Positions 3,673 to 39,785 of a stretch of DNA of 39,785 nucleotides are shown piece by piece. The stretch is from Ectobacillus panaciterrae DSM 19096 (lineage in GTDB: Bacteria; Bacillota; Bacilli; Bacillales; Bacillaceae_G). Under the pieces are notes generated by a model. That model worked only from the letters and a program-made list of their open reading frames with translations. It made no database searches and was not told the DNA's origin. Where the stretch lies: NCBI RefSeq assembly GCF_000430785.1, contig NZ_AUMR01000052.1:1-39785 (forward strand), in the 5' to 3' direction. A program made the translations under genes and the position numbers. Within the stretch, counting starts at the first letter, position 1. Each line of letters begins with the position of its first letter.

Positions 3673-3751
3673 TGCCGTGAAGCAGGTTTCTGTCTCATTC
3701 GTTCCGTATTTGTTACCATAACACTAGCTGCCGCAGAAAGGAAGTTTGGAC

Positions 3752-4396
3752 ATGTTTACACTGCAAAATGTATCTTATAAAGATATTTTACATATCCCTG
3801 AGCTTACCATCCAAGAAGGAAAGGTTACATGCATAATCGGCGAAAGCGGAAGCGGCAAAACGACGCTGCTAAAAATGCTGAATGATATGCATTCACCTGA
3901 TAGCGGGACAGTCTTGTATCGAGGAGAGCCAATTTCTTCATACTCACCTATACAGCTCAGAAGAGAAGTTGTTATGCTCGGGCAAACACCTCCTATTTTT
4001 GAAGGAACAGTAAAGGAAAACCTTCTGATGGGCTTATACTTTTCCGAAAAATCCGCTGCAAATGAAAAAGAACTGCATCGTGCGCTGCAAACCGTTCACT
4101 TGGAAAAATCATTAGAGGATAATGCAGAACAGCTGTCAGGCGGCGAAAAGCAGCGGCTTGCTTTGGCGCGCGTGCTCCTGATGGATCCAGCTGTATTTCT
4201 ATTGGACGAACCTACTTCTGCTCTGGACGAGAACACTGCGCATATCGTCATGACACAATTCATCAAAGAAGCAAAGGATAAGAAGAACACGGTCATTATG
4301 ATTACTCATTCCCGTACCCTTGCAGAAGAAGCTGCAGATGATATGGTGGAAATTAGTAAAGAGCATGGCGCCGTAAGAAAGGAAGTTTCCAGGTGA
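3752..4396 (+). CDS. fetA: ABC transporter ATP-binding protein, FetA/YbbL type
   Basis: A 214-aa ATPase subunit. Walker A (GESGSGKTT, about residues 31-39), signature LSGGEKQR, Walker B followed by DEPTSALD, and the switch histidine in ITHS are all present. The partner membrane gene overlaps its stop codon (GTGA overlap) and belongs to the FetB family, which in Escherichia coli FetAB is linked to iron export and peroxide resistance. The ATG at 3752 has AGAAAGGAAG upstream; a TTG two codons earlier is the only in-frame alternative. The substrate is inferred from the FetB partner. Confidence 0.82.
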   Translation: MFTLQNVSYKDILHIPELTIQEGKVTCIIGESGSGKTTLLKMLNDMHSPDSGTVLYRGEPISSYSPIQLRREVVMLGQTPPIFEGTVKENLLMGLYFSEKSAANEKELHRALQTVHLEKSLEDNAEQLSGGEKQRLALARVLLMDPAVFLLDEPTSALDENTAHIVMTQFIKEAKDKKNTVIMITHSRTLAEEAADDMVEISKEHGAVRKEVSR

Positions 4397-30767: not shown

Positions 30768-30881
30768 TTTCTCTCATCTCTCAAAGCATTCGCTTTGCAG
30801 GAATTGGCACCATTTCAACATTTGTTGACGGTTGCCGGGCTTCACAGGGCGCAGTCCCTCCACCTCTCTTGATAAGAGAAA
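30768..30881 (-). ncRNA. SAM-I (S-box) riboswitch aptamer
   Basis: The minus strand shows the canonical order: P1 arm TTTCTCTTATC, then AAGAGAGGTGGAGGGACTG, GAAGCCCGGCAACC, a P3 hairpin, GGTGCCAATTCCTGCAA, a P4 hairpin, and the closing P1 arm GATGAGAGAAA. It is followed by the terminator at 30712. High S-adenosylmethionine should favour the terminator and switch off metN-metP-metQ (established S-box mechanism). Confidence 0.97.
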
Positions 30882-37424: not shown

Positions 37425-38912
<1,488 letters not shown>

Positions 38913-38942
38913 TCAACCAGTCCTCCTCTCTCATTTTATTTT

Positions 38943-39785
38943 TTAGAACCAATATATGTTTTGAAACCTCCAGATTAACGTTACAGGTTTCAATCCATAA
39001 CGCTTTAGAATCTTACCATCTGTCGTGGTCATATTACATTGCCTTTTCTCCGGATAGAGAGCTGTGATATATGCGTCATATGTTTCTCCATTTCGTTTCG
39101 TATAACGTACAACATCACGATGACGGAATCCAGACACTTCTTCCCTCCTTGCCCGGCTCCTTCTTCGCAGGGGCTTGATGAGCCAATCCTTTATCTCACA
39201 TTGCGTAGATTTTACCTTTAGACCGGTAATGACAATGGCGTCATTACTATGTGACTTGGGAATATCCCAGTCGATTCGTTTATTGGCTGTGTCCCCGCCT
39301 GTTGTAAGAAAAACAGGCGCAATACCTTCTAACTCCTCACGCAAATACTGTTTCCCTTGCATCACATGCTGCGCATCTCTTGTATACACTTGTCTTCCGT
39401 TGATTTTGGCATATAAAGCTTCCTTATAATCCAGTTCTTTGTTTGTCACATCCTGATGACAGGCCTGACACAGGGTGATGAGATTATAAATGCTGTCAGC
39501 ACCTTGTAATCGTTTAGGATGAATGTGATGCGCTTCTAAACGGCACCCGTTCTTTCCACACATTTGACATGCATAGTTGTCACGAAGCAGGGTTGCCTTC
39601 CGTAAGTTTTCATCCAGACGGTTGCTCTTCTGATATTGCCAATTGGATGGCTTGCATCCTTCTGTCAGAGCACGCACATCGATATAAACATCTTCTAGAT
39701 AGATTCGATTGATGCGGATCCATTTGCCAAATGTTCGAACGGTACGAAGAATCGCTTCTCGTTTCTGTTTAATGGTAGGAGGAAT
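38943..39785 (-). CDS. iscB: IscB-type RNA-guided nuclease, C-terminal part (5' end beyond window)
   Basis: The frame is open from the window edge (39785) to TAA at 38943: 280 residues without N-terminus. In order: a RuvC-II-like segment (RINRIYLEDVYID, about 39720), an HNH domain with two CxxC zinc pairs (CQMC, CQAC), AHHIHPKR and NLITLCQACH (39456-39570), then a RuvC-III motif KSHSNDAIVITG (about 39222-39257, with the catalytic H and D). A basic C-terminal region (KPLRRRSRARREE; TTDGKILKRYGLKP) would be the target-adjacent-motif-interacting part. This order matches IscB, the transposon-encoded ancestor of Cas9. The HNH rules out IsrB. The bridge helix, RuvC-I and omega-RNA gene should lie beyond 39785. 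Confidence 0.87.
   Translation of the reverse strand: MPPTIKQKREAILRTVRTFGKWIRINRIYLEDVYIDVRALTEGCKPSNWQYQKSNRLDENLRKATLLRDNYACQMCGKNGCRLEAHHIHPKRLQGADSIYNLITLCQACHQDVTNKELDYKEALYAKINGRQVYTRDAQHVMQGKQYLREELEGIAPVFLTTGGDTANKRIDWDIPKSHSNDAIVITGLKVKSTQCEIKDWLIKPLRRRSRARREEVSGFRHRDVVRYTKRNGETYDAYITALYPEKRQCNMTTTDGKILKRYGLKPVTLIWRFQNIYWF
38963..38991 (-). repeat. Inverted repeat near the iscB 3' end
   Basis: Perfect 7-bp arms GAAACCT/AGGTTTC, loop of 15 nt that itself contains the palindrome TAACGTTA. It lies within the last codons of iscB. Could be part of a transposon right-end structure or chance. Confidence 0.35.

Follow-up and report, generated by a model that had tools for sequence, protein, structure and literature searches.

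What gene runs off the end of contig C38 in the Ectobacillus panaciterrae DSM 19096 genome, and why does the sequence stop there? The window, meaning the whole stretch of DNA that was analysed, is this entire contig of the host genome (G000), 39,785 nucleotides ending at position 39785. On its reverse strand, the C-terminal 280 codons and the stop codon of an iscB gene are found at 38943..39785; this frame of 280 residues contains zero internal stops and is open at the contig end, where the 5' part is lost. The best explanation, to which we assign a probability of about 0.78 as a whole, is that the feature is one copy of a repeated IscB (OMEGA) mobile element whose N-terminus and omega-RNA lie past the end of the contig. 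Such an element would derive its guide from the flanking DNA, target Shine-Dalgarno sequences, keep the neighbouring gene translated through its right end, and move in trans. It is an ordinary IscB when judged by its protein and an unusual element when judged by its site and its ends.

The IscB fragment, its copies and its RNA

The earlier note proposed an IscB-type nuclease from an HNH domain with a double CxxC, followed by the RuvC-III motif KSHSNDAI with key residues intact, and database comparison agrees with it. The tail of the RRXRR domain (PF14239, 1.7e-6) is matched at residues 1-53; with the alignments, this places the end of the RRXRR/RuvC region, including the RuvC-II glutamate of YLEDV (codon 39693-39695), at 39627..39785 on the reverse strand. 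The HNH domain with its two CxxC pairs (PF01844, 5.4e-11) is at residues 73-116 (39438..39569, reverse strand), and alignment to HfmIscB locates KSHSNDAI at residues 177-184 (39234..39257, reverse strand). Both CxxC pairs, the HNH histidines, the YLEDV glutamate and KSHSNDAI, which we take to be the catalytic residues of the IscB family, are conserved in alignments with relatives. The closest solved chain to the window protein is HfmIscB (9k2z, 9.3e-91), with TbaIscB and further IscB chains next; against the full-length protein P0001, HfmIscB reaches 2.5e-144, with residues 4-414 of 417 aligned.

Against the NCBIfam guided_IscB model NF040563 the fragment scores 155 bits (1.9e-45), below the cut-off of 175. 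The match starts at profile position 124, hence the N-terminal part is missing from the window protein. Three full-length relatives are matched from position 1, with 287, 277 and 288 bits, so the profile search supports the assignment, with the window fragment as a partial match. The missing N-terminus, with which the earlier note expected the gene to begin, is visible elsewhere. The RuvC domain is split around the HNH, with RuvC-II, HNH and RuvC-III in the window, and RuvC-I (IDDGSK/VDDGSK) with most of RRXRR in copies C33 and C45 of the same genome and in full-length relatives. The RRxRR arginine-rich bridge helix is found in relatives, and positions ~104-121 of the RRXRR model are unmatched anywhere in G000. 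In the members read, the N-terminal motif is LxPT (x = S, T or D) and the literal letters PLMP are absent; HfmIscB, which is filed as an IscB, likewise has no PLMP and has LAPT. Judged by its sequence, the window protein is an IscB, distinct from a stand-alone HNH protein.

A pattern scan of genome contigs identified eight relative loci, two of them cut at contig ends. Three are in Bacillus taeanensis (G070), which belongs to the same order as the host, and the others are in Bacillus sp. FJAT-14578, Bacillus sp. 03113, a Lachnospiraceae genome and Clostridium bowmanii. By profile search at E <= 1e-40, six genomes, the host among them, are positive in a sample of 398 from the phylum. In nine Staphylococcus phage records the match spans 98-99% of the query with 50-56% identity; there is one truncated copy in addition, and 13 viral contigs contain iscB relatives. 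Nine stretches of viral contigs fit a pattern of AAGG plus the left tip: five contigs already found, one new iscB copy (L214), and three (L215, L217 and L220) that were judged to be chance. The pattern without GG gave three stretches, every one in contigs already known, and two other patterns gave none.

Among the relatives, dN/dS is 0.05-0.28 in the eight of 11 iscB pairs that yielded a value (one of the 11 is saturated and two have a dS of ~0.85-0.99), which suggests that the nuclease has been kept. These sequence comparisons show the iscB of the relatives to be under purifying selection. An IscB of another clade is present three times in the congener G002 (L039, L043 and L045); these loci were compared as a contrast with element ends not fixed, and the Shine-Dalgarno pattern described below was not seen there.

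The right end of the element is present at 13 places in G000, the window included, although C92 and C96 could be a single site, given the flank that they share. The matches have the 3' end in common and vary in how far they reach toward the 5' end. Five copies (C33, C24, C54, C37 and C17) are internally deleted: C33 retains both the 5' and 3' ends of iscB, C24 consists of ~365+156 bp, C54 of ~144+112 bp, and C37 and C17 are similar. Contig ends cut off the window copy, C120, C96, C108 and C113, and in C92, C42 and C60 the right end alone is visible. A further copy of ~120 bp is found at C2 (locus L130), and another left end enters a run of N upstream of a gene read as citrate synthase. The iscB gene is seen complete nowhere in G000, with one copy masked by a run of N. 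Most likely, the window contig ends at 39785 because the element is a repeat that was collapsed.

An omega-RNA upstream of the gene was predicted in the earlier note, and a HEARO-like RNA was found 5' of iscB in C45, a sibling copy (L026; 50 bits, full model, E 3.5e-7). At E <= 0.05, HEARO is matched over its full length in five of the 13 loci given (L026, L038, L165, L057 and L164), with E-values of 3.5e-7 to 0.0056 and all below the Rfam gathering score of 83; the other eight loci have no match. At gathering thresholds HEARO is absent from the window and from six sibling loci, of which the looser search matched one, L026. In one phage record a HEARO has been annotated by its depositors. The prediction therefore holds for a sibling copy and for relatives, at scores under the gathering score. 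The stretch between the left end and iscB is taken as a divergent HEARO RNA, and its guide would be the left-flanking DNA of the element, which ends in AAGG. Two loci of genome G294, L136 and L137, retain the stretch that holds the RNA in other copies and have lost iscB; Rfam gave no match there, and they sit directly ahead of pfkA and an HU/IHF-like gene. In the region upstream of L050 (C13 of G000), a stretch ahead of an IS200-like transposase gene looks, by eye, like an omega-RNA.

Junctions in the Shine-Dalgarno region

In the window, the non-coding right end of the element occupies 38868..38942 on the reverse strand and finishes in ..ACCAGG (last base 38868), an end common to other copies. 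GAAACC follows, and then the ATG of a GH1 beta-glucosidase gene (37428..38861, reverse strand, stop codon excluded; best match TIGR03356, 5.6e-138, just below the cut-off), giving a gap of 6 nt. An ATG opening at least 40 codons is located 4-14 nt 3' of the right end at 35 of 44 distinct sites, which comprise 13 in G000, 16 from nine other bacterial genomes, three in Staphylococcus phages and 12 in viral contigs. For comparison, 222 of 1625 AGG and 100 of 674 AAGG outside ORFs of at least 100 aa pass the same test (14-15%), a background taken from 29 loci, window included, from which neither native Shine-Dalgarno sites nor the elements were removed. A looser first start-codon control (19-21% background, GG-containing cores) was replaced by this ATG-only test with an ORF mask.

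The 44 sites are the 45 right junctions listed after removal of one duplicate. Outside the count are L154 (its junction is that of L152), C96 (its flank is that of C92), L061 (ends not placed), L214 (unread at the right end), L134 and L135 (decayed right ends), L165 and L166 (insertion at a coding site), and copies of which only the left end is present. Six of the nine sites that do not pass (C60, L056, L058, C54, C113 and L160) have GTG, TTG, ATT, an ATG with a short frame, or a spacing slightly beyond the range, as read partly by eye, while for C108, L055 and L060, three of the 44, no convincing start is seen even by eye.

The left tip is preceded by GG in 46 of 46 copies, by AGG in 43 and by AAGG in 31, where the left boundary was placed after GG by us. 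A pattern containing GGAGCT was used to find 14 of these copies, which are for that reason not independent evidence for GG; the other 32 were found without it. At its right end the element finishes in its own GG, mostly AGG. The junctions of the family are thus at GG, mostly AGG or AAGG, and mostly in the Shine-Dalgarno region just ahead of a start codon. For the AG at the left junction of the window type, comparison with congeneric orthologues favours an element origin at C37, is ambiguous at C33 and is undecided at C2. A search for a TAM in the right flanks gave no strict motif.

The genes right behind the copies include those for DNA polymerase I (polA) in G436, for 6-phosphofructokinase (pfkA), an HU/IHF-like protein and MtaB (mtaB) in G294, and for an acyl-CoA ligase and a CobW-like GTPase in G000. 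One of the ten such proteins given, that behind L054, has no family at 1e-15. Among the matches listed from PMC titles and abstract openings, a source outside which preprints and most subscription papers fall, no IscB or related element at ribosome-binding sites is reported, and this absence is no proof that no such report exists.

Natural filled and empty alleles are present in sequenced Staphylococcus phages, which makes guide, TAM and homing directly testable. The native Shine-Dalgarno is split at AAGG by the element in JDF86, compared with phiSA_BS1 and PSU4, and in Golestan, compared with PSU4 and phiSA_BS1; in RSM-J51Sa, compared with phiSA_BS2, it is also split at AAGG and the element is internally deleted. 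At the right ends of Golestan and RSM-J51Sa the element's AAGG is joined to the remaining native bases, and at the right junction of JDF86 there are three extra bases. In the Silviavirus comparison, of two filled and two empty records, the copies (L165 and L166, at ~2150-2280 and ~3740-3800) interrupt a RusA-like resolvase gene just after its start, in an A-rich stretch. Here the right junction provides a new start region, and the repeated stretch has a synonymous serine codon swap relative to the empty L170 and L171, as if escaping the element's own guide. With a guide from the left flank, IscB probably cuts unoccupied target sites, which would favour retention or homing of the element; an occupied site would be safe because the element separates the guide match from the TAM.

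The right end and its hairpin

Two types of right end are found. In type 1, the tip is a stretch ending in AGG that reads as a Shine-Dalgarno with the native bases after it; its members are the three phages, 11 of the 13 viral contigs, L055, L059, L065, L066, L067, L136 and L137. In type 2, that of the window, the element terminates in a hairpin; its members are the G000 copies, L054, L056, L057, L058, L060, L138-L140, L143 and the viral L150 and L162. In L055 of B. taeanensis, the GGAGG after the iscB stop reads GGATG, and the right tip is AAGGAGG instead of ACCAGG.

The window hairpin (38869..38920, reverse strand) has 17-nt arms with one mismatch, and AGGAGG, a strong Shine-Dalgarno-like sequence, is one base before it (38922..38927, reverse strand). 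The distance from there to the ATG is 60 nt in linear sequence and 8 nt with the hairpin excluded. A spacing script scored both an ATG and, 1-7 nt ahead of the hairpin, a Shine-Dalgarno-like sequence in 13 of 23 hairpin-type copies; in these 13 the linear distance to the ATG is 48-101 nt and the distance without the hairpin is 7-14 nt, with C37 measured to a nearer ATG than in the start-codon test. Three of the 23 (C60, L056 and L058) were scored for the Shine-Dalgarno-like sequence and not for the ATG, and seven were scored for no such sequence. Variants that the script does not count are present in six of the 23, GGGGAGG in C120, C92, C108 and C42 and AAGGAG in L150 and L162, and C113 was missed owing to its position.

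The fold is seen across the family. With arms and register chosen by hand, 176 of 187 arm cells pair in 17 copies, eight of them from G000, against a mean of 145 and a maximum of 163 when the arms are shuffled between copies (2000 trials). In ten representatives 100 of 110 arm cells pair, against a maximum of 92 in 13,660 derangements. The paired changes in the arms, in excess of every shuffled set, indicate that the hairpin has been maintained. In phage T4 genes, a hairpin can unite two halves of a ribosome-binding site.

The right end may keep the downstream gene translatable by two routes. In one, the AAGG at the element tip would join the remainder of the native Shine-Dalgarno. In the other, that of the window type, the folded terminal hairpin would bring AGGAGG, at its foot, to 7-14 nt from the start codon. 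A wider proposal, made tentatively and at slightly less than even odds, is that the family is specialised on Shine-Dalgarno sites, that it carries a portable ribosome-binding site in its right end, and that the copies without iscB turn 5' leaders into guides. The element would then split the ribosome-binding site from its gene and the hairpin would fold the distance away, such that even genes like polA tolerate an insertion at their start, and L136 and L137 would make host 5' leaders into guide RNAs usable by an IscB made elsewhere. Mobile elements must land without killing their host, which introns do by splicing out. This IscB family seems to have found a translational solution: it lands on a ribosome-binding site and supplies another. 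Should this hold, it would be a natural case of a structured spacer separating the Shine-Dalgarno from the start codon, tolerated by many unrelated genes.

Mobilisation and alternative explanations

The earlier note left the element as either domesticated or mobilised in trans. No transposase gene is present in the copies read end to end; this, with the many copies, some as short as ~120-520 bp, fits mobilisation in trans and tells against domestication. Movement would be driven by a transposase encoded elsewhere. Y1_Tnp is matched in eight of the ten relatives searched, and the IS607 model above cut-off in six of ten genomes; G000 has eight Y1_Tnp matches, all outside the element, and G000 and G436 have one IS607 match above cut-off each. 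G294, a single contig with five copies of the element, is matched by neither Y1_Tnp nor IS607 at E <= 0.001, and G512 has no Y1_Tnp at E <= 0.001 and IS607 matches solely below the cut-off. The Y1 and IS607 TnpA candidates were compared with the element as possible mobilisers, and their ends gave only matches of 14-18 nt, taken as chance. In G436, the locus L142 has a left end and the 5' part of iscB broken off near Y1 transposase remnants with many stops.

Like the OgeuIscB (7xht)/HEARO systems, this family has RRXRR/RuvC, an HNH with CxxC, a RuvC-III and an upstream RNA, but it differs from them in having LxPT rather than PLMP, HEARO matches below the curated score, and sites that are mostly Shine-Dalgarno sequences. 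Viral occurrence is common to both: in the excerpted text of PMC9755519, over 16% of the fragments encoding HEARO nucleases are given as likely viral or prophage-derived, and only a few HEARO nucleases as being near TnpA. The IS607 family and group B IStrons resemble it in the GG of the target, described for IS607-type elements in the excerpted text of PMC4227781, and, by eye, in AT-rich complementary stretches near both ends. Unlike them, it has iscB and not tnpB, and no serine recombinase gene in the end-to-end copies; unlike IStrons, it has no group I intron among the Rfam matches for the loci given. The IS200/IS605 elements resemble it in the right-end hairpin, in a tip similar to the target, and in the lack of a clear target duplication in two of the three empty-allele pairs, whereas it has no Y1 TnpA in end-to-end copies, nor in G294 and G512 at E <= 0.001.

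It may be that AGG or AAGG alone is required, with selection leaving the survivors at Shine-Dalgarno sites. On this account, which is possible but which we doubt, the transposase needs only the core, genic insertions are removed by selection, and the AGG at the right end is a cleavage signal with no role in translation. The invariant GG before the left tip is in line with it, as is the coding-site insertion in one phage group. In IS200/IS605 elements, too, tip motifs resemble the target. It is harder to reconcile with the 35 of 44 insertions that precede a start codon, against 14-15% of AGG and AAGG outside long ORFs, and with the 13 of 23 hairpin-type copies in which a Shine-Dalgarno-like sequence precedes the hairpin by 1-7 nt and has an effective spacing of 7-14 nt. 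The use of GG targets by IS607-type elements, as given in the excerpts of PMC4227781, also speaks for a simple core.

A homing element that needs no transposase, where IscB cuts the empty site and repair through short AAGG homology copies the element in, would account for the five copies in G294, which is without a Y1_Tnp or IS607 match at E <= 0.001, and for phage allelic sites that are filled in some and empty in near relatives; the synonymous serine swap in Silviavirus would be expected if uncut sites were favoured. This is nevertheless improbable, as homing alone does not give copies at unrelated sites in one genome, a transposase could have disappeared or have diverged too far, and Y1_Tnp is found in eight of ten relatives and IS607 above cut-off in six of ten genomes. 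It also seems unlikely that the window copy is dead, a functionless remnant truncated at its 5' end. Five siblings in G000 are internally deleted, three more are a right end alone, and the N-terminus of the window copy is out of view; yet its truncation point is the contig end, its visible motifs are intact, and the relatives are under purifying selection.

Two other structured RNAs were matched in the DNA around the copies. A SAM riboswitch (RF00162, 89.7 bits) is present in the window at 30771-30878 on the reverse strand, and a cspA leader (RF01766, 78.9 bits) lies in the DNA flanking the copy of Bacillus sp. FJAT-14578 (L057, 874-1354).
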